Source: Bolinopsis microptera (lineage: Eukaryota > Ctenophora > Tentaculata > Lobata > Bolinopsidae). Taken from it: a stretch of 64,000 nt of DNA. Below the pieces are notes generated by a model, which saw only the letters and a list, made by a program, of their open reading frames with translations, made no database searches and was not told the origin of the DNA. The stretch's first letter is position 1. The number at the start of each line of letters is the position of its first letter. The DNA lies in contig NC_087077.1 in NCBI RefSeq assembly GCF_026151205.1, positions 16,094,983 through 16,158,982 of the forward strand, read 5' to 3'. Both the position numbers and the translations under genes were made by a program. Shown here in pieces: positions 2,655 to 41,821 of the stretch.

Positions 2655-3130
2655 ATTAACTCACACAGTGTCACATAAGGATTAAGGAGCTGTACAAGTC
2701 TTGGCAGCTTGATAAATAGCAGAGTTATAATGACTAGAATATCTAAATAAACCGGTTCTGTGGCAGTCGAATAAATCGAACATTTTAAAGATCTCATTAA
2801 ATAATTCTGACACTGTCAACTCAGGAAGTCTTGCTGCAGGTATTACAATCTATATATTGCTCATACATTACATCAAATCTCCGCTTATCATTATATAAGA
2901 CTGAGATCAAATAATCCAAAATATTTAAACGACCGCTTGATAAATTTAAACGGTTCTAGAGGTAGTTTGTCGGATTCTTGAAATATTTGCAGGAAGTTGC
3001 CATGGTTATGTTATTTAAAATAAGCGCAGCGAAATTACCAAAACCTTTTAAGCCGTAACTACAAAACTGACAGCTTATAAGTTTAACTCACGCTCCTTCG
3101 CTTATTTTTAGTCGTAGGGACTAGCCTTAT
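2655..3130 (+). repeat. Left-arm copy of the two-arm inverted repeat family
   Basis: It starts near GGAGCTGTACAAGTCTTGGC and includes GACTGAGATCAAATAATCC and GGTAGTTTGTCGGATTC, and ends with CGCTCCTTCG..TTTTTAGTCGT. It is collinear with 9830-10290, 14930-15370 and 19020-19400. No right arm follows. Confidence 0.75.
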
Positions 3131-3224
3131 TAAGGTCTTTACTTTTAGTACGGGCCTTATTTTATTCAAGCTAAAATACTCTCTCTAAACATAAGATAAA
3201 CTGAAGATAATTTCAAATGTATCG

Positions 3225-3395
3225 TTAATATCAATCAATATAATAATATCAATCAATATAATAATATCAATCAATATAATAATATCAATCAATATAATAA
3301 TATCAATCAATATAATAATATCAATCAATACAATAATATCAATCAATATAATAATATCAATCAATACAATAATATCAATCAATATAATAACATAA
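3225..3395 (+). repeat. 18-bp tandem repeat (about 9 copies)
   Basis: The unit AATATCAATCAATATAAT repeats about nine times with few changes. It creates a spurious isoleucine/aspartate frame on the minus strand. It sits at the left end of the inverted-repeat unit described at 3225-4375, and one related copy occurs at the right end (4351-4373). Confidence 0.9.
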
Positions 3396-3421
3396 ACCCG
3401 CCACGCAAAGGGTTTATATAA

Positions 3422-3527
3422 CAGATCATCCCGCGCTAGCGGGATGATCTGATAAACACATACGAGTGCGCGCAGCGCACGAGTTTTGTGTTAATATGTA
3501 ATCCCGAAGCGCCAGCTGAGGGATTAC
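3422..3527. repeat. Cluster of three perfect hairpins
   Basis: In order: a 13-bp stem (3422-3434 with 3439-3451, loop GCTA), a 6-bp stem GTGCGC-GCA-GCGCAC (3466-3480) and an 8-bp stem GTAATCCC/GGGATTAC (3498-3505 with 3520-3527). A weaker AAACCC/GGGTTT pair precedes them. They could extrude as single-strand structures. No terminator-like role can be claimed. Confidence 0.75.
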
Positions 3528-3602
3528 ATTTATTTAGCCCTGAGCGTGAAGTGTTTATGGATTATAATTATCTCCGGCGATTTCGACAAGGGATTTATAC
3601 TT

Positions 3603-3842
3603 TTAGACAGAATACATAGTCTTCATCTTCAAGTCAAATCCAACAGAAACAAGAAAGCACTCTAAAATGTAGTTGAGTCGTTGAACAGGAATTTGGTCAA
3701 AGTCATTGAAGTCACGAGCAAATCTGGATGACTGAAGCCAAGAATTAAATTTGTTTAGAGCCCAGTTGTTGACTCTAACTGTACTGTCCGGAACACGATT
3801 GGAAAGCAGTTCATCAATCTGAATGTCAAACCGATCTGTCAT
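3603..3842 (-). CDS. Fragment resembling the N-terminal core-binding domain of a Crypton-type tyrosine recombinase (DUF3504/ZMYM-like)
   Basis: The ORF opens with ATG at 3842 and gives 79 residues. Its order of residues, a short helix (DELLSNRVPDSTVRVNNWA), then LNKFNSWLQ, then a helix ending in LNYILECFLVSV, resembles the SAM-like domain preceding the catalytic domain in Crypton recombinases and in derived host proteins of the ZMYM, QRICH1 and KCTD1 group. The expected continuation (a basic turn followed by a Tyr-Pro-rich helix and the R..H..R..Y catalytic domain) is missing; the frame stops at 3603, so this is a broken gene or a single exon. The CpG-rich tract upstream could hold its promoter. 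The family call is by recalled pattern only. Confidence 0.35.
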   Translation of the reverse strand: MTDRFDIQIDELLSNRVPDSTVRVNNWALNKFNSWLQSSRFARDFNDFDQIPVQRLNYILECFLVSVGFDLKMKTMYSV

Positions 3843-4049
3843 AGTGGAGCAATAGCTTGAACGTTAGCAGGAACAAGAGCTGGAAGGAGAGCAAGCAAAA
3901 CAATACTATTTTTAGGGCACGGACAAGGGTAGCTGGCTAGTCGCCAACTTCTCACGCCACGCGTTGGAGAAATTCCAAGAATTAGCTGCTTTGGCAACGT
4001 TCCCAGGAATTAGCGTGTAAAAGAAGTGGACGGTTACGATGTTTCATAT

Positions 4050-4133
4050 CACGTGGTGCGCTTTCGTGTCACGTGGTATAGACCCGGCGTATGCTATTGG
4101 TGGCACGTGGTACGCACGTGACGCGCCCACGTG
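4050..4133. promoter_or_regulatory. Cluster of five CACGTG palindromes
   Basis: CACGTG occurs at 4050, 4070, 4104, 4115 and 4128, five times in 84 bp, inside a CpG-rich patch. CACGTG is the class E-box core bound by bHLH-ZIP factors such as MYC/MAX and USF. It lies about 210-290 bp upstream of the minus-strand ATG at 3842 and may be its promoter region. That role is inferred. Confidence 0.55.
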
Positions 4134-4406
4134 ATCGCGCGTCTAACTGTTCTACTATTATCGAGTTCTAATCAGCAGTATCATTGATTATTGTAAGTCG
4201 GAGAATTGAATGATAAACATCAGTTACGACTGAAAAGCGGGCCGGGTTTATACAAATTTCCGGGGCGGGATGATATCACCTTGAGATGTTTATCTAACAG
4301 CGGGCCGGGCTGAGTGATAATATGATCCCGCGTCGAAATCCCGGAGATATTTATAATAATATCAATTAATATCACACTTTCGAGCCAAATTTGGCAGGAA
4401 AGCAGA

Positions 4407-4467
4407 ATTGATATTGCATGCCCCGATGGGGAGCACTAGCTCTCACCCGGGGGCATGAAATATCAAT
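4407..4467. repeat. 61-bp imperfect palindrome
   Basis: ATTGATAT-t-GCATGCCCC pairs with GGGGGCATG-aa-ATATCAAT, with a small inner GAGC/GCTC stem. It looks like a tiny hairpin element; no target duplication was identified. Confidence 0.7.
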
Positions 4468-5633
4468 CAGTTGAGAGAGTCTGATATTCCCATAGGAACA
4501 AGGAGCCCACTCTCAACAACTGTTCTACTACTGTGAGGTACTGATTTAAATAAAGATTTAAATCAACAACCAGAAGTAGTCTATGACCGTAAATGCAATG
4601 ATCAGATAAATTTTCCAGATTTAGGAAAAATATATATTTATACCTTGTTTTAAAAACATTTCCTTGCGTTTGAGATGTGTTAAGCAAAATACAATTTTTT
4701 GTTGTAAAACTTTTTCAAGCTGTTGCTTTTTTACTGCACTTCATAGTTCAAAACCTAATTAGGCTTCGGATGATGAAACAAAGTAAAAACTCCCTGGTTT
4801 GTACGAGTTTCAAGCGACTTAAGGTTACTGAAAACGAGATCAAAGTTTACAAGCAGACTTGAAAGTTGCACAAAGTTTTGGTACTTGTCAGCGATACAAT
4901 CAATCAGGCTCATTAATTTCCTTAATCGCTTACTTGAAATTAAAAAGGAAGTGTCAGAACAAACTACAGTCACCCTCACAAAAAGTAGTAAACACAGAAA
5001 CGATATTTGATCTATTCGAAGGAAGAAAACACACAAAACAAGAATCTTCTGTGAGCCATATTCCATATAGTAATTGTGCAGAAATTATACTAGGATTTTC
5101 CAAACCGGCTTCCCCTAGAATGGCTTGCGAAATTCGTGGCTGATATATAAAGAGACTTATAAATTCTGAACAATAAAGAGTGAAAATTCTATCCCTGCAC
5201 CAGTTTTAACTGAAGTTTAGTTAGTGCAACAAAAACATTCTATAAAATATATTATGTATATAAAGATATCAAGGGACGAATGGCGTAACTTAATCAGCTA
5301 ATTCAGTTATAAATTGGTCTGGTCGCTGGGGCAAATTTAGGTCCGATGATTGATATGCTGCCATTCTTTAGACCAATTCAATATTGCTAACAGTACGGGA
5401 GAACTGCCTGGCAATGACCAGGGTGGTTATAAAGTTATAAAAGGCTGGTGAAGTGCGTTCTAAAATGGTATTACCAGGCCGATTATCGGGCTATTAAGTC
5501 AAGAGTTACTTTCATAAACAATACTAAAGAGTACGGATGTCTGCTCTTGATATTAAAACAATCTAGAGTTGTATTGAAGAGATACATTATATTACTGCTG
5601 TTCTGATAATTTCTAGTGAAGCATATAATGGCA
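4468..5633. other. No supported gene
   Basis: Open frames of about 100 codons exist on both strands at 4755-5143. Neither shows a known domain and they overlap each other. The rest is AT-rich unique sequence. Confidence 0.4.
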
Positions 5634-7140
5634 AGATGAATATAAGCAGACTGTACTCGATAAAATCCAATATTTTAATACTCGATAAAATTCAATAAAA
5701 GTCAATGATTACAAGTTCCAGTGATAAATCATTCTGAAATAACAGACAATCAAGACGGACGATAATATTGTTGATATATGTATTAGGGCGTGTAGTACGA
5801 GTACAACATGAACAGTTGAAAATTTGGACTTATAAATAGACAATCATGGCGCCACAGCCCAATTCAAATATAACAACCAGGAAATACTATCACCTTATCG
5901 CAGATTAGTATTACATGATAAGGACTAGGGTGTAATCAACACTAAAACAGATGTTCTATACATTATACATCTTCAGTTTTAATGACTCAAAATATATCTA
6001 ATAGAAATAAAGTATACGAATCACCTCACATCAATTGATTTGCAGGATGTAATTACGTATCAAACGCGCTCGCGGCGGAATATTCTAGACTCATAAGTAC
6101 AAGACCCATAGGCGGAAAACACATTAATATCGCATGCACTAGGTATCAGTACAAAGCAAATTCAGCGCGGCACACAGCATTCACTGTGTCATAAATGTGA
6201 AACGCGAGATTCTAATTTCACGTATTGTATCTTTAATAATATCTGAAATACTAACTTATCGAGAGCTATATATAGCTTGGACATTATAAACATAAATAAG
6301 TTCGACATGTCTAGTTTGCTTTGGTGAGATTTATAACTAAAGTTTGATCAAATTCTGCTTTCCCGGCCAAATTTGGCTCCAAATAATGGCAAATTATGGC
6401 AAGGAAGATGAATACTGACTAAGAACTATAAAGCACACTATACTCGATAAAATTCTAACTTGTCAACGATTGCAAGTTGCATTGATTAAATCATTTTGAA
6501 ATAACAGACAGTCAAGAATCAAAACGGACGATAACATTTTTGATGTGAATTAGGGCCTGTGGTGTATAATGTGGACTGATAGATTATAGATACTAATTAT
6601 AGCTCCACAACTCTATTTAAATACAAGAACTAGGAAATACTTTCACCTTATCGCAGATACACATTTATGATAAGGACTCTGATGTATTTAATCAACACTT
6701 GAACGGATGTTCTACACATAGTATATTTTCGGTAGTAATGATCAAGTATAAAATTACCTCACACCAATTAATATGCAGGATATAATTTGTGATTAATAAG
6801 ACGCGGTGATCGTGGCGGAATATTCTAGACGCCAATAAGTACAAGTCCCATGGTCGATAAATATAATAATATTCAATGCACTACGTATCACTTGTGAGTA
6901 TAAAGCAAATTGGGCGCGGCATACAGCATTCACTGTGTCATAAATGTGATGAGCACGTGAGATCTTAATTGTACGTATTGTATCTTCGATATCTGAAATA
7001 CTAACTCATTGAGAGCTATATATAGCTTGAATATTATAAACATAAATAAGTTCGACATGTCTAGTTTGCTTTGGTGACATTTATAACTAACGTTTGATCA
7101 AATTCTGCTTTCCCGGCCAAATTTGGCTCCAAAGAAAGTG
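5634..7140 (+). repeat. Diverged tandem duplication, about 750-bp units
   Basis: Unit 1 (about 5634-6390) and unit 2 (about 6398-7140) are collinear. Both hold ACTCGATAAAAT, GAAATAACAGACA, CACCTTATCGCAGAT, GGCGGAATATTCTAGAC, GCATTCACTGTGTCATAAAT and GAGAGCTATATATAGCTTG, and both end with the same TTCGACATGTCTAGTTTGC...GGCCAAATTTGGCTCCAAA block. They differ by many substitutions and small indels, so the duplication is old. No coding frame is conserved between the units. Confidence 0.85.
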
Positions 7141-7153
7141 TGATAAAACATTA

Positions 7154-7318
7154 ATCACATGCCTTCTCATGCGATATCAACATTTTCAAAACTCGGCAAG
7201 CCTCGTGATTGAAAATGTCGATATAACCCTCGGCAAGCCTCGGGAAATATCGAAACTTTCGCTAACTCGGCAAGCCTCGTGGGCGAAAGTTTTGATATCG
7301 CATGAGAAGGCATGTGAT
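7154..7318. repeat. Cloverleaf (four-way junction) palindromic repeat
   Basis: A perfect 27-bp outer stem (7154-7180 with 7292-7318) encloses three successive hairpins: 7181-7217 (stem CATTTTCAA), 7219-7252 (stem CGATAT) and 7253/4-7291 (stem AACTTTCGC). Each carries the same 14-nt loop CTCGGCAAGCCTCG (7192-7205, 7230-7243, 7266-7279). Almost no base is left unpaired at the junction. It has no coding content and is unrelated to tRNA in sequence. Confidence 0.9.
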
Positions 7319-8178
7319 AAATGTATAATATAATGCTTTTGGACACGAAGGGAAACACACAACGTAAGGCTTGAAATCTTCGTAAAACTACATCCTGTAA
7401 AAACATTTAACTTTAAGATAAGCACTCTATCAAGTAAAATTCATATATAATCATCATAATTTATTAAACCAAACTTAAAAATTGGCAGGCAAAATTTAAT
7501 CAGTCAAAATTCATAGCATCAATTAATATACTATGTCTATGAGTTCTGTAAATTGTTTATAGAAATGATCCTGATCCTATAGAAAAATATAATACTCTTC
7601 GCTATGTGTGGGGAGCTGGAGGTGATTAAAAGGACTCCATCCTGATAAAATGTTAGGGGCCGGGGTCTACCCTGATTTATTTTAATCAAAAAATTAATTT
7701 TTTTTTTCAAAAAGAAAAAAACTGGAGCAAAAATGAGTTGTAACCCCAAAAAAGCAATCGCTGGTGGAAATAGCGAGATTTGGGTTGTTAATTTTTATTC
7801 ATAACCCATAAGAAAAAAAAAGGTTTGGAAAATAATGATATTGGGATTGGTTTTATTGGAAATGTCAGTTTGAGATAACTTTATTCAAAAAACGACCTTT
7901 TTTTATTTTTTGGGCTTTTTAACACAACAAAAAACCTGTCTCCGGAGAGGGGGGGGGGGGGTTTCTAAATGATAATTACGCTAGTGTAATTTTGATACAA
8001 TTAGCTATGTGTAAAACTGATTAAGTGATGGCTGTTTAAAGTTTTTGCGGAGCAGAGTGATTACACTAAATGCTTTTGCACGTTGCCTGCAGATCGGAAA
8101 AAATAGAATAGATAAAAAATACGTCTAAAAAGATGGTTTTTATGATTCTAATGTATCGAGCAGATAATCCCCGTAACA
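7319..8178. other. No supported gene; homopolymer tracts
   Basis: Contains long A, T and G runs (a G run near 7950). Frames here are low complexity. The piece 7335-7405 (GACACGAAGGGAAACACACAA..CTACATC) recurs at 51295-51345 and weakly at 10858-10915, so it is part of a dispersed repeat. Confidence 0.5.
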
Positions 8179-15832: not shown

Positions 15833-16535
15833 GGTAAGCCTAAAAGATACATTCTCTTCGATATATAGCTTATAATATTTATAGAAATGTTGAAACTAAG
15901 GCCAAAAGACAACTAAAAATGAAGAAAACAGCCCATATCTCAGTTCGCGATTTTCGCAAAAGTGACTTTACCAAAAAGCCCAAGGCTTTTTCATTTTTCA
16001 AAATTTTCCCATGAATTTTTAGAATAGCTTTGGAATCGTTTTAAGACCTTATCATTTGGCCCATATTTTTAAGTTAGGCCTTTTTTTAATTTGGTGGCCA
16101 GAAAATAAAATGATGTGCAAAAAAATATTTTTTGGCCACCAAAAATTAACCCTTGCGCGCTGCACGCGTCTTGTTGTCTTGTTGTCATGGTAACGGACAG
16201 AATTAAGGACGTTAGGACAGACGACATATTTAAACCCACCTACCTCGTTCTGCAAAATCCCTCTTTTTCTGCAAAAACGACCATTCGTACCTTTCACTAT
16301 TGCCTTTTTACAAAAGCGTGTAAATGGAAAAAATCCGGGCCGAACGTGACGATTCCAAAGCTATTCTTTAAATTTCATGGGAAAATTTTGAAAAATGAAA
16401 AAGCCACTGTTGCGAAAATCGCGAACTGAGATATGGGCAGTTTTATTCATTTTTAGTGGTCTTTTGGCCTTAGTTTCCACATTTCTATAAGTATTATTTA
16501 GTATTAAGCTATATATCTCATAGTATAGACTTACC
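15833..16535. mobile_element. Foldback element with arms of about 180-210 bp
   Basis: The left arm (15833-16046) starts GGTAAGCC and contains AGATATATAGCTT-like sequence, AAACTAAGGCCAAAAGAC and CCATATCTCAGTTCGCGATT. The right arm (16352-16535) is its inverse and ends CTTACC. The interior about 16050-16350 has a separate inverted ATTTTTGGTGGCCA tract. The 70-104-codon frames across it are on both strands of the palindrome and unlikely to be genes. Confidence 0.75.
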
Positions 16536-36768: not shown

Positions 36769-37176
36769 GTACCATATAGAGCATAATTACAAATATCGTA
36801 AAGTTAAACCAATCCAATTTTCAAGTTTTCACACATTTTTTTACCGGCCGTTTTTGACCAATAAACACGAATTTGAATAGCAACGCTTCGTGCAGGGGAA
36901 ATTTTAAACTTTCTCGATGAGTAGTCATGAAGGGCCCGACAAATTAAATTTACAGTTCAGAAATCTTTTGGCCCCAAAGGTTTTGCTCTATTACGGGTAA
37001 ACCTAGGATGCTGCAGATTCAACTCTGTACATTCAGACCGTCTGTGCGTGGTGAAGAGCCACATCCTGCTCGAGGTGGGGCTGCATGCAACTTCAGTGAT
37101 GGAGTTGTAACTGAACACAGCGGATCTAGGGGTGCACCCCCGAAAAAAAGCCGGGCATCCTCAGAACGAGCTCGTG
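36769..37176 (+). other. Spacer and probable 5' region of the following LINE
   Basis: No gene. GC content rises from about 37000, where LINE 5'UTR sequence probably starts; the exact 5' end is not visible. Confidence 0.4.
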
Positions 37177-40100
37177 ATGATGGTGATTTGGGTTAATGAA
37201 GATGTAACAGATTCCGGAACTATGGGAGCACCATCTGTCATCTTTCCGTTTTATTTACTGTATGTGGGAACATCTACTGATGAAGTAGCTATCAAGAGAG
37301 CCATTCCAGTGGCGCAGGTGGCTCACGTGTCACATAGCCAACAGAAAAGAAACATGATGAATAGTTCTTACAGCACTAGGGTATCAGCCCCTACTTTTGT
37401 TTCTGGACGTGAAGGTGGTAATGATTTCACCAACTTAAATCCGAATGGAAGGTTGGTGAATGATGAGCCTAATCAACCTGAAACACCCAACATAAACGAA
37501 AACAACAAAAAAAGTTTATTTTCATGTACCGACATTACCTGGGTAGGCACTCTTAACACTAGAACGATAAGAACTGCTCAGAGGAAACTGGAGATGGTAC
37601 ATCTTTTCGAGAAGAGTGGAGCAGAGATTGTAGGTATCCAAGAGCACAGGATAGTCCATGAAGAGCCTGTCAAAGTAGAGAGAGTTGGCAAGAGCAGCTA
37701 TCTAATTACTTCATCAGCTACTAGGAATCGGGCCCAGGCAGCAGTGGGCGGAGTGGGATTCATCCTAACTAGCAAGGCATTTGACGCAACTACGGAGATA
37801 ACACCAGTAACGGAGAGAATCCTTAAGATATCTCTAAATGGTAATCCTAAACCAACCTTCGTCTGTGTCTACGGACCTACGGAGGCAGATAGTGTAGAAG
37901 CAGCAGAGAAGTTTCATACCGATCTAAGGTGTGCAGTCTCACAGATCCCTGCTCACAACTTCTTGGAGGTGATTGGGGATTTTAACGCTCATCTATCAAA
38001 GAGGGACGAGAATGACTTTGGTTGGTATTTCCATGAGAGAACCAACAGAAATGGGGAGCTGCTTCGGGATACTGCCCTGGAAAGTAATCTGGAGATTACA
38101 AACACCAGGTTCAGAAAGAAGCGGGGTAAGATGTGGACTCACCTATCGGATGGAACCCTGAATAAGTCTCAGTTAGACTTTATTCTAGTGAGGAAGAAGT
38201 GGAGGAACAGTGTCAAAAATACTGAAGTCTACAGCTTCTTTAGTACACTGGGTACTGATCATAGACTTGTTTTGTCTAAGATCAAGCTATCTCTTCGACG
38301 AGCAAAAAAGCAACCCAAGAAAACCTGGTATAATTGGGGAGCACTTAAATCGGATGAAGACCTACAGAAGAGATATGCAGTAGAAGTCAAGAATCGGTAC
38401 TCTGCTTTATGCGAGCAAACCGATGAAAGTGAGGTTACGGAACTGTATGGGCATTTTGTTGATGCGATTGCTGATACCAACAAAGCCATACTGCCTAAGA
38501 GAGAAAAGAAGAGACGTGACGATTTCGCGGGTGATCAGCGAGTTCAAAGCGTGCGTACAGCCTTGCAGCAAGCAGAGACTGTCTATCACCGGGATCCTAG
38601 TGAAGACAGTCGACTGTCTGTTAAGCTATTAAAAACTGAACTGGATCAGGTGTACCAGGACATCTTTGAAGAAGATCTAGTTGCCAAGGTTAGAAGGGTC
38701 GAAATGGCTGCAGACAGATGCAAAAACAAAGAAAGTTGGAATGTCATAAATGAGATAACTGGCAGGAAGGCCAAGGGGGCAACTCAAATAAGGGGCAACG
38801 GAGCCGAAGAAAGGAAGAAAAATTGGCTTGGGCATTTCACGAATCTGTTAGGGAGTATACCGGATGTGGAAAACGAGCATCCTAGGATCGAGACTCAATT
38901 TGAAGGACTCAACATCAGTACAGAACCTTTTACTGTGGATGAGCTTAAAGCTGCTAAACACAGGATAAAAGAAGGTAAAGCACCAGGTGATGACGGCATA
39001 CCACCTGAAGTCCTCAAAAGATACGACCTGGATGAAATCGTGCTGTCCTTCTGCAACAAAGCCCTGACAGATGGTATTGCGCCAGATCAGTGGAGGATAA
39101 GTAACATCATCCCGGTTCCCAAAAAGGGAGACTTGACCAACCCTGGAAACTGGAGGGGGATATCTTTGACTTCTCTCGTAGCTAAGACTCTCAATAGAAT
39201 GGTGCTTAATAGGATCCAGCCGGCTATAGAGGGGGTACTTAGGGACACTCAGAATGGTTTTCGGGAAGGACGGTCCACTACTTGTCACATCTTGGCACTC
39301 AGAAGGATTCTAGAGGGGGCTAGACAGAGAAATTTACCGGTAGCTATGGTGTTTGTTGATTTTAAGAAGGCCTTTGATTCACTTCACCGGGGAATTTTGA
39401 TGCAAATACTAAAGGCCTATGGAATACCGGACAGTATTGTAGATATCATTAATCTTCTCTATGTCAACACGAAGGGCAAAGTTATAACACCAGATGGGGA
39501 TAGCTATTTGATATCCTGGCAGGAGTTCTTCAAGGGGATACATTAGCACCATACTTGTTCATTATAGCCCTTGACTATTGCATGAGACAAGCCTTAAGCA
39601 AGCATCCTGAAATAGGATTTACCATTAAGCCTTATCGGAGTAGGAGAGTCAAGGCGGAGAAGATAACAGACACTGGTTTTGCAGATGACATTGCTCTGAT
39701 AGCAGATACTGTAAAGGAGGCAGAGATGCTGATGCTAGAGGTAGAAAGAGTTGCTGCTACAGTGGGACTTAAAATGAATGAAGGGAAAACCAAATTCATT
39801 ACTCAGAACATCGAGAACCCTGATACCATCAAGTCCCTGGGTAACAACACAATAGAGCACGTGGAAGACTTTACCTATCTTGGTTCTAGAATCAGAGACA
39901 GTGAGAGTGATATCAGGGTTAGGAAAGGAAGAGCATGGGGAGCATGCCACACTCTCAAAAAACTTTGGAAATCTAACCTTAGAAAGTCTATCAAGACCAG
40001 AGTGTTCACAGCACTAGTCGAGTCGGTGCTTCTATACGGTTCTGAGACTTGGACTATGACGAAAAGGCTGGAGAAGATGGTTGATGGTTGCTATACACGA

Positions 40101-40436
40101 ATGTTAAGAATGGCCCTTAACATCAATCAATATCGAGACCATGTCAGCAACCACAGTCTGTACGGTGATCTTCCTAAAGTCAGCTCCAAGATAACCCAAC
40201 GAAGGCTCAGACTTGCAGGTCATGCTCACCGACATCCGGAGCTGACACTGAACAAACTGATCCTCTGGAAGCCGAGTCATGGGCATACTAACAGGGGGCG
40301 ACCTTACCTAACACTACTAGATAACCTAAAAGCAGATACTGGGCTGAAATCAGTAGATGAGATAGCTAGACTGATGGAGGACAGAAAGCTGTGGAGAACT
40401 GTTGTCAATGGATCTCGGGAATACTACCCGCCTTAA
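37177..40436 (+). pseudogene. Nearly full-length APE-RT LINE (RTE-like) broken by a single missing base
   Basis: Two adjacent frames together encode about 1,080 residues. The first (ATG 37177 to 39546) holds an AP-type endonuclease: WVGTLNTRTI, GIQEHRI, VCVYGPTEADS, IGDFNAHLS, SQLDFILV, GTDHRLVLSK. It continues with RT blocks APGDDGIPPEVLK, PVPKKGDLTNPGNWRGISL, GFREGRSTTCH and FVDFKKAFDSLHR. Near 39510, TATTTGATATC lacks one base relative to a frame reading FDILAGVLQGDTLAPYLF, so the polymerase palm is split. The second frame (to 40436) contains TGFADDIALIADT with the catalytic DD, FTYLGSRI, LYGSETWTMTK and the LRLAGHAHRHPEL tail. The element is not autonomous as read, but is otherwise well preserved. 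Confidence 0.9.
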
Positions 40437-40455: not shown

Positions 40456-41645
40456 TGTTGTTAGTTTTTATTTATAACGGATTGTAAATATATCAACACA
40501 CCGAAATAAAATTAAAAGTGGCGTGTTTGTTTCACAAAAAGCACACTCCGGCCCAAATACTCAAATATTACATTTCTGGACAGGGAAACAAATTCTGTGC
40601 CAACTCATGGCATTTATTACATTTTCTAAAACACAAATATCCAAAATAAATTTAAGTAGGCTTTGCACTGAAAATAAAAATGACCAATAACTGGGCGGAT
40701 CCCTTTCTATCTAAAAGTTTTTTGTGATTTTGTGTTTGTCATCATCCACACGATATCAAGTTATCGTTAATCTAGTTAAAAGAGTGCACGCGTTTCACTG
40801 CTTAACTTACTTGCTTTAGGAGTGAGGTGTCATTCTTAACTTAAACTAGTTTGAATCAAAAGCGAGTAGCATTATGATCTTTTATAGTCCTTCCTCCCGT
40901 TTCAAACGTTATACATTATATATATCCAGTTGGGCCTAGCTTGAATTCGATCCTCCACTAGCGTCGCCCTCAATATCAACCCCTTTGATAATGTATTATC
41001 TTCTTATTATCTTACTGACTAAAATTAGCACGGACGCGGTTATGAATTCTGCAAAAACAACCAAATAGCGCCCACAATATTAACAGTGAAAAATCCAACT
41101 GTGTGAAAAAGGTCTCGAATATTGACCACAATCTACGTGGTGATATAAAATGAGTGTATTAAATCAGAACTTTTTATTTGTTCTCTTTCGAAGCAAATAG
41201 CTATTAATATAAATGTGTCATCTGTCATGTAACCCACTTTTCCAAGATCGGATCTTGAAAGACGGAGCCATTTATGGTCTCACTTCTCAACTGTCACAAA
41301 CTATAAGTTGACAGTTGAAAGAGATACTGAGACAGGGGATCACCATACCAGTGGGAACGTACTTGACTATTAATTAATTGTGTTCTCTGACATATACTTA
41401 ATGTAGCTAAAGGATATAAATAAGCAGGGTTAAAGAGCCGCATTGATTACATGGTGAGATTCTTACAGAAGAGCCCCCGATTGGTGTAATCTACTTAAAT
41501 CAACGAATTTGTGGACGCTGATTCCGAATCACCATACGTATAATTTCCAACATATGGTCAGGGTAAAATTGTTTTCTTCTTTCGCGCAATCTGCTCGAGC
41601 CATCTACAATCTATAAAACTTGTCACAATAGTCAATCGTATAAAG
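40456..41645. other. No supported gene
   Basis: AT-rich. A 10-bp hairpin TCAACTGTCA/TGACAGTTGA lies at 41287-41318. Nothing else recognised. Confidence 0.45.
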
Positions 41646-41821
41646 GGATATTATCATTATTAACCAACAACCATCATCTGGTCTCATCAAATACCAATAT
41701 CAGTATCGTTATACAATTACAAGCTTAAGTACGATCTAGATCGTTCAAGCTTGCATAACGGTACTGATTTTGGTATTTGATGAGACCAGATGATGGTTAT
41801 TGGTTAATAATACTAATATCC
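41646..41821. mobile_element. 176-bp full-length palindrome
   Basis: 67-bp arms (GGATATTATCATTATTAACC.. and its inverse, a few mismatches) flank an inner palindrome AAGCTTAAGTACGATC / GATCGTTCAAGCTT. It has the form of a hairpin MITE. The target duplication is not resolved. Confidence 0.75.

Follow-up and report, generated by a model that had tools for sequence, protein, structure and literature searches.

Results

A cloverleaf in the window

The window, 64 kb of Bolinopsis microptera DNA at C6:16094983-16158982, contains two adjoining elements of different families, each ending in a sequence that can fold into three hairpins on a common outer stem (Table 1). In the cloverleaf of the family 1 element, all pairs of the outer stem (27/27) are Watson-Crick with no wobble, exactly at the coordinates given in the initial annotation of this DNA, and the stem extends for five more pairs past one mismatch. 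The three hairpins carry at their tips an identical 14-mer, CTCGGCAAGCCTCG, starting at 7192, 7229 and 7266, that is, with a period of 37. This 14-mer had been described as a loop; it probably pairs internally (GGC/GCC). The annotation allowed for one or two unpaired bases at the junction: T7218 and A7253 are unpaired when the structure is drawn by hand, and none in the minimum-energy fold. Even with two mismatches allowed, CTCGGCAAGCCTCG is absent from the rest of the window (expected 0.05 matches).

Table 1. Positions of the two elements and their parts in the window
Feature	Position	Strand	Basis or remark
Family 1 element, non-autonomous Crypton-type (tyrosine recombinase) transposon, ~2.96 kb	4370-7327	+	5' terminus match at C6:16099352; 3' end defined by 65 distinct flanks
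5' asymmetric terminal inverted repeat (ATIR), partly self-complementary	4370-4412	+	86% inverted match to 7097-7145
Internal tandem unit 1, ~0.7 kb	5678-6383	+	77% to unit 2 within the window copy; about equal to the step in copy lengths
Internal tandem unit 2	6380-7133	+	similarity to unit 1
3' ATIR, directly upstream of cloverleaf	7097-7145	+	inverted match to 5' ATIR
Three-hairpin cloverleaf	7154-7318	+	outer stem 7154-7180 / 7292-7318
Hairpin arm 1	7181-7217	+	tip motif 7192-7205
Hairpin arm 2	7219-7252	+	tip motif 7229-7242
Hairpin arm 3	7254-7291	+	tip motif 7266-7279
Left 6-bp core TAATAT (recombination core / terminal direct repeat)	4367-4372	+	read in sequence
Right 6-bp core TAATAT (host-derived copy)	7326-7331	+	read in sequence
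Family 3 element, second Crypton-derived non-autonomous element, 974 bp	3383-4356	-	matched in full or for the most part by 31 other places
Family 3 three-hairpin cloverleaf, outer 30 pairs, arms 13/16/13	3383-3566	-	fold and detector
N-terminal coding remnant of a tyrosine recombinase (YR), 79 codons, in family 3 copy	3603-3842	-	matches start of 267-aa ORF of L264

Two measures bear on the remark in the initial annotation that random DNA does not do this. The DNA fold energy is -52.9 kcal/mol, compared with -18.5 ± 2.68 kcal/mol for shuffled sequences (z -12.8), and none of the 200 shuffles was as good; the RNA folding of the same sequence is also very stable. A detector that looks for an outer stem closing on three single hairpins, run on both strands of the window, ranked 7154-7318 (+) first and 3383-3566 (-) second. 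Only these two places in the window combine 24 or more outer pairs with no more than two unpaired junction bases; at a third, 5184-5338 (-), the outer stem reaches 27 pairs but 10 bases are left unpaired. No fold of this strictness occurred in five block-shuffled windows, whose top folds had 15, 25 (8 unpaired), 23 (6 unpaired), 18 and 23 (1 unpaired) outer pairs. The detector alone is unspecific: across nine YR stretches it passed a chance fold (L242, 9660-9837; z -0.36).

Other features of the window are a ~600-bp MITE-like foldback that includes 98-nt arms with 93% complementarity (15872-16497), and two adjacent long open frames (37132-40436) that by eye resemble the endonuclease/reverse transcriptase of a non-LTR retrotransposon. 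The most stable of the scanned 180-nt RNA folds (41641-41820, -98.9 kcal/mol) is one long hairpin that bears no relation to the cloverleafs.

Copies and ends of the family 1 element

The genome search proposed in the initial annotation returned 219 exact matches to CTCGGCAAGCCTCG in 264.65 Mb and none to the reversed sequence that served as a control; among the places listed, most are triplets of period 37. Exact matches in viral contigs (at least 120 stretches, with one match each in the 80 listed) were not used as evidence. The 191-bp cloverleaf region is found in 40 places at 99-100% identity, 38 of them at 100%, with the window copy counted (40 scored of 93 candidates).

We compared 75 family 1 loci, consisting of the window and 74 other stretches. 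The canonical end ...GTGATAAATGTATA is present in 69 of the 75, with the flank diverging right after it (65 distinct flanks, 4 duplicates), and is missing in 6. The 5' terminus, TATCACACTTTCGAGCCAAATTTGGC, has 76 genome matches at up to two mismatches, and lies upstream on the same strand of 62 of the 70 listed cloverleafs in a search to 30 kb. The distance between terminus and cloverleaf in these 62 ranges from 1.5 to 20.7 kb, with a median of 2839 bp; two termini each serve two cloverleafs, and the longest distances may not represent single elements. Copy lengths step by ∼0.7 kb, the size of the internal tandem unit. The bodies of the copies are ∼81-98% identical to the window copy over long stretches, and the end is nearly invariant. 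The first ∼43 bp recur in inverted form before the cloverleaf (86% over 49 columns), and the order of parts is 5' ATIR, body, 3' ATIR, cloverleaf, core.

At two loci (L157 and L162) family 1 copies stand in end-to-end tandem. The junction reads TGTGATAA-ATGTATA-TTATCACA: inverted arms with a 7-bp spacer between them. Inverted arms around a spacer are the usual form of a tyrosine-recombinase core (compare the cited parts of PMC3212892 and PMC5871717). At two further loci (L163 and L165) the cloverleaf is inverted between unchanged flanks, so that 2 of the 74 matches to its right half (at up to two mismatches) are flipped. These are possible products of recombination at the cloverleaf, and could reflect inversion by a recombinase or repair of a cruciform. 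Both inverted cloverleafs are also truncated or joined to element sequence.

Cloverleaf ends of three further families

Family 2 comprises L239 and L240, where a YR gene lies upstream of a cloverleaf with CTCGGC-NNN-GCCTCG loops; its YR is 40% identical to that of family 1 over 193 aa. Most of 20 further stretches have the loops CTCGGC-TGC-GCCTCG, CTCGGC-TTC-GCCTCG and CTCGGC-TGC-GCCTCG with a period of 37/38, the loops in L239 and L240 being altered and several of the 20 stretches being truncated or rearranged. The triple spacing of 37/38 bp is what counts here, since the number of matches to CTCGGCNNNGCCTCG is uninformative (201, with 194 for the reversed control). Only the last ∼250 bp are common to the family 2 copies, and a search for their 5' end did not find one. 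The minimum-energy fold of the family 2 end is a rod, compared with which the cloverleaf is worse by 2.6 kcal/mol as DNA and 10.7 kcal/mol as RNA; the detector found no family 2 cloverleaf in L239, nor the one drawn in L240. One family 2 copy contains a ∼700-bp internal inverted repeat in its body (L243, 223-921; 78%).

YR matches fall inside three of the 31 places that match the family 3 element. Two of these (L263 and L265) consist of a 5' part, a YR in pieces and a 3' cloverleaf; in L264 the 3' part was not found in the 2.8 kb read. The 5' end of family 3 has no clear hairpin. Family 4 comprises L270 and L271. In L270 a YR frame of 355 aa (PF12012, 7.4e-16) lies between ATIRs and cloverleaf, with 46% identity to the family 3 YR over 254 aa and 23% to that of family 2 over 227 aa. 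The copies of the family 4 end are at least 98% identical (40 scored of 236 first-look candidates). There are no symmetric terminal inverted repeats; asymmetric ones occur in families 1, 3 and 4, and in all three an inverted repeat stands in the same position, just before the cloverleaf.

Conservation of the fold

One end from each of the four families was folded, with z values from -10.3 to -13.9 and 0/200 shuffles as good in each case. The arm stems differ across the families (the best ungapped identity between 5' halves averages 44-60%), and 112 of 113 arm pairs are Watson-Crick, with no wobble, in arms chosen by eye, a choice that favours pairing. The compensatory pairing claimed in the initial annotation is thus seen between arms and between families. 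It is not apparent within family 1, where the 14 ungapped rows among 19 distinct ones have 99.5% paired cells and a single compensated pair, equalled by 66 of 500 shuffles. The comparison of family 1 copies favours neither side; the end pattern matches 65 copies (of 75 loci), and 46 of these are identical. Wobble pairs number 3 of 283 over the four family ends, a low count that is weak evidence, as DNA energy rules disfavour wobbles.

By our reading, 10 of 12 arms have a tip of the form C-TC-stem-loop-stem'-TC-G, one of the ten (family 4, arm 1) with an extra base before the second TC. The inner tip stems are GGC/GCC, AGC/GCT, GTGCGC/GCGCAC and GTGC/GCAC, and in families 3 and 4 the third arm is a plain hairpin. 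Searched strictly for this tip, the window gave seven matches, five of them inside the two cloverleafs. The presence of a similar folded tail with different letters in four families suggests that transposition depends on the fold itself.

Core sequences and integration

The window copy is bordered by TAATAT on both sides. Of 42 family 1 left flanks, 41 have A at -9, all 42 have T at -3 and 40 have A at -2; among 65 right flanks, the positions +1 to +4 have A in 55, T in 63, A in 62 and T in 55. In family 1 the left core is mostly TATTAT, and the right one mostly TAATAT or a near variant. In three family 1 insertions into tandem-repeat DNA (L223/L139, L226/L136 and L218/L185) the host TAATAT is visible.

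One case in family 4 provides a comparison of an empty and a filled site. The element in L271 is nested in another family 4 element, and L270 is its empty site. The empty site reads GGGTTAA-TTATAA-TATTTT, and the filled one TTATAA-ACCCC... and ...GTGTG-TTATAA: the core occurs once when empty and twice when filled. Three family 4 copies all have TTATAA on the left, with TTATAA, TTGTAA and TTATAT on the right. A duplication by staggered cuts would leave identical copies of the core. A left core brought by the element and a right core from the host fit site-specific recombination at an imperfectly matching core. TTATAA in family 4 and TAATAT at the window copy are also of the size of the short terminal direct repeats (4-6 bp) that Cryptons use as recombination substrates.

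Tyrosine recombinase genes

A YR gene is absent from the window copy of family 1. One copy, L217, combines the 5' terminus of family 1 and the 3' cloverleaf with a YR gene between them that is spread over two overlapping frames; the gene matches PF12012 (6.8e-8) and weakly, below the cut-off, Phage_integrase (3e-4). A sister copy, L236, is 97-99% identical to it across most of 4.6 kb, and meets the 5' terminus of another copy before any cloverleaf. A different small deletion breaks the YR gene in each of the two, and no intact family 1 gene was seen among them. Two long family 1 copies (L216 and L218) have reverse-transcriptase genes in place of the YR, which we read as nested insertions.

PF12012 (DUF3504), which we take to be the Crypton-type YR domain, has 14 profile matches in the genome, and Helitron Rep has 41. 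We compared both with 174 listed ends (76 family 1 5' ends, 67 cloverleaf centres and 31 family 3 places, with no family 2 or family 4 ends), which with 5 kb on either side make up 0.45% of the genome. Five of the 14 PF12012 matches lie within 5 kb of these family 1 and 3 ends (P 4e-9), as against 1 of the 41 Helitron Rep matches (P 0.17), which is the level of chance. Three Helitron Rep matches of equal score on C11 (3834408, 3846209 and 3856595), each in an open frame of 1759 aa and 10-12 kb apart, are perhaps a tandem Helitron array.

A cloverleaf is present at six of the 14 PF12012 loci (C12:5804940, C3:3820186, C3:3821937, C1:13993529, C4:8198644 and C5:12919330), and two loci are partial (L264 and L236). 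In L217, L239, L240, L263, L265 and L270 the cloverleaf is found on the coding strand, downstream of the YR. No comparable cloverleaf was found in the stretch read at six loci (L235, L266, L267, L268, L269 and L272), some of which may be host genes. The YR of L235 (C1:15149686) was rejected as an element of the cloverleaf type, and sits instead among zinc-finger repeats. Positions 2987-4984 of that stretch (C1:15146700-15156600) hold an open frame of 665 codons with a Crypton-type YR domain, between duplicated pieces of a zinc-finger gene. By eye, the part where L217 has its presumed catalytic tyrosine is missing from it, and it is possibly a domesticated recombinase.

The 22 best Foldseek matches of a structural model of the family 4 YR are all tyrosine recombinases; the model is of low confidence (mean pLDDT 52), the E values range from 6e-5 to 0.1 and the TM-scores are low, and we used only the identity of the matches. 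A profile of five YR pieces matches the integrase 3nkh (E 6e-4).

Discussion

The element ends, the AT-rich core on both sides, the end-to-end tandems, the YR between the same ends and the occurrence of a cloverleaf in four YR families lead us to the view that the window cloverleaf is probably the attachment structure at the 3' terminus of a transposon of the Crypton class, moved by a YR; membership of the Crypton class is well supported. The case is weakened by the lack of an intact YR among the family 1 genes seen, by the six PF12012 loci read without a cloverleaf, by the rod of family 2 and the 5' end not found for that family, by the uninformative covariation within family 1, and by the description of animal Cryptons, in the cited parts of PMC3212892, as elements without any terminal repeats. 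The initial annotation had offered a cruciform-transposing element or a recombinase target among its suggestions. Its recombinase part agrees with our results, as the cloverleaf is the end of a tyrosine-recombinase element and related copies hold YR genes between the same ends; the use of a cruciform we only infer. Within the literature searched, a cloverleaf at the terminus appears to be a feature of Cryptons that has not been described before: judged by titles and the opening lines of abstracts, we found no report of hairpin or cruciform Crypton ends.

The same ends could be read as those of a non-autonomous Helitron2/Helentron, whose ATIR and 3' hairpin would be rolling-circle start and stop signals and whose YR genes would have been captured. 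All Helitron2 hallmarks named in the cited parts of PMC3627910 (a 5' ATIR, a 3' ATIR directly before the 3' hairpin and a 5' hairpin) are found in family 1, the ATIR with an immediately downstream 3' hairpin also in families 3 and 4; joined ends and tandems are possible for Helitrons according to the part of PMC5148889 cited here, and RepHel genes do occur in the genome. However, it is the YR and not the RepHel matches that gather near the listed family 1 and 3 ends. Moreover, YR occurs in all four cloverleaf-ended families, and it is improbable that one class of enzyme was captured again and again. The core seen once in the empty and twice in the filled site is un-Helitron-like, in the one family 4 case, and the family 3 5' end is without a clear hairpin. 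We dropped this reading, which we consider very unlikely, on the grounds that RepHel lies at chance distance and YR matches lie between the ends. A branched palindrome at a terminus, inverted between the same flanks in L163 and L165, also recalls the rolling-hairpin termini of parvoviruses. Hairpin transfer would, however, give about half of the copies in flipped orientation; the observed 2/74 speaks against rolling-hairpin replication as the usual mode, the cloverleaf is at one end only, and a parvovirus-like terminus is extremely improbable.

Two other explanations accept the element and differ in what the cloverleaf does. It might work at the RNA level, either within the 3' UTR of YR transcripts or as a small RNA, kept for stability, nuclear retention or a ribonucleoprotein, which would suit its stable RNA folding and its place downstream of the YR on the coding strand in six loci. 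Yet most copies must be without a YR (14 PF12012 matches compared with 236 candidates for the family 4 end alone), the 113 arm pairs read by eye contain no wobble, the family 2 end as RNA prefers the rod, the Rfam covariance models gave no matches, and the cloverleaf is the last part of the element at its 3' end, beside the core. The source of a structured RNA that the initial annotation had considered found no support, and we regard a role as RNA as quite unlikely. Alternatively, the palindromes might be three double-stranded sites for a dimeric protein, with the fold as a by-product of their symmetry. Each arm does form an inverted repeat about its centre, inverted arms are targets of YR proteins (PMC3212892, in the parts cited), and the rod of family 2 fits a site with no particular fold. 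This account is unlikely, as it leaves unexplained the long outer stem around all three arms in four families, and the hairpin-type tip, in which the inner stem varies yet stays paired and the TC/TC mismatch is constant. The position beside the core, the presence in copies without YR and, weakly, the few wobble pairs favour a fold formed as DNA, which is how we infer the cloverleaf to be read.

For the question of how Cryptons recognise their ends and multiply, the terminal cloverleaf offers a concrete candidate site. In the mechanism that we propose, the window copy would depend on a YR made elsewhere, which would join the ends into a predicted circle with the core at its junction; the end-to-end tandem junctions point to such a circle only indirectly. 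The cloverleaf strand would fold as single-stranded DNA or as an extruded cruciform, and its TC/TC-interrupted tips, as putative docking places for the recombinase or a partner protein, would position one defined strand for exchange with a matching core in the genome. Such a folded attachment site, single-stranded or cruciform, would work like the attC of integrons, for which the cited parts of PMC8946536 provide the precedent of a YR acting on a folded strand. By this analogy, it is conceivable, though we hold it only tentatively, that a lineage of eukaryotic transposons recombines through a folded single-stranded site recognised by its shape, with TC/TC mismatch tips, as integrons do. If true, exchange of one strand and replication of the second would explain how elements with YR only gain copies without reverse transcriptase or Rep. 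Four YR families have kept the shape without the sequence despite YR identities down to 23%, and the shape is a means to find such elements by structure.

We know of no terminal cloverleaf in Tn1549, a bacterial conjugative transposon and in this respect different from the elements described here. The Tn1549-type integrase nevertheless offers a parallel for the junction: the cited parts of PMC5871717 describe a circle junction of AT-rich inverted arms around a 5-7 bp crossover, and an AT-rich target consensus. The likeness to Helitron2/Helentron elements lies in the 5' ATIR, the 3' ATIR directly before the 3' hairpin and the joined-end tandems; in the portions of PMC3627910 and PMC5148889 cited, however, those elements encode a Rep-helicase, have ATIRs of 8-15 bp ∼20-30 bp from the 3' end, and carry a simple hairpin and no 6-bp core. 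With Cryptons, including animal CryptonA, the elements share the YR gene, non-autonomous derivatives that outnumber the coding ones, and the short core direct repeats of fungal and oomycete Cryptons (PMC3212892, as far as cited), and differ in having an asymmetric inverted repeat and a three-hairpin 3' cloverleaf in B. microptera. The integron attC site, as presented in the cited parts of PMC8946536, is likewise a YR site kept in its fold and not its sequence, with imperfections that interrupt the hairpin; it folds from single strands or cruciforms and is used strand-specifically. The bacterial site is a single folded palindrome, whereas the possible eukaryotic counterpart in B. microptera has three hairpins on an outer stem beside the core.
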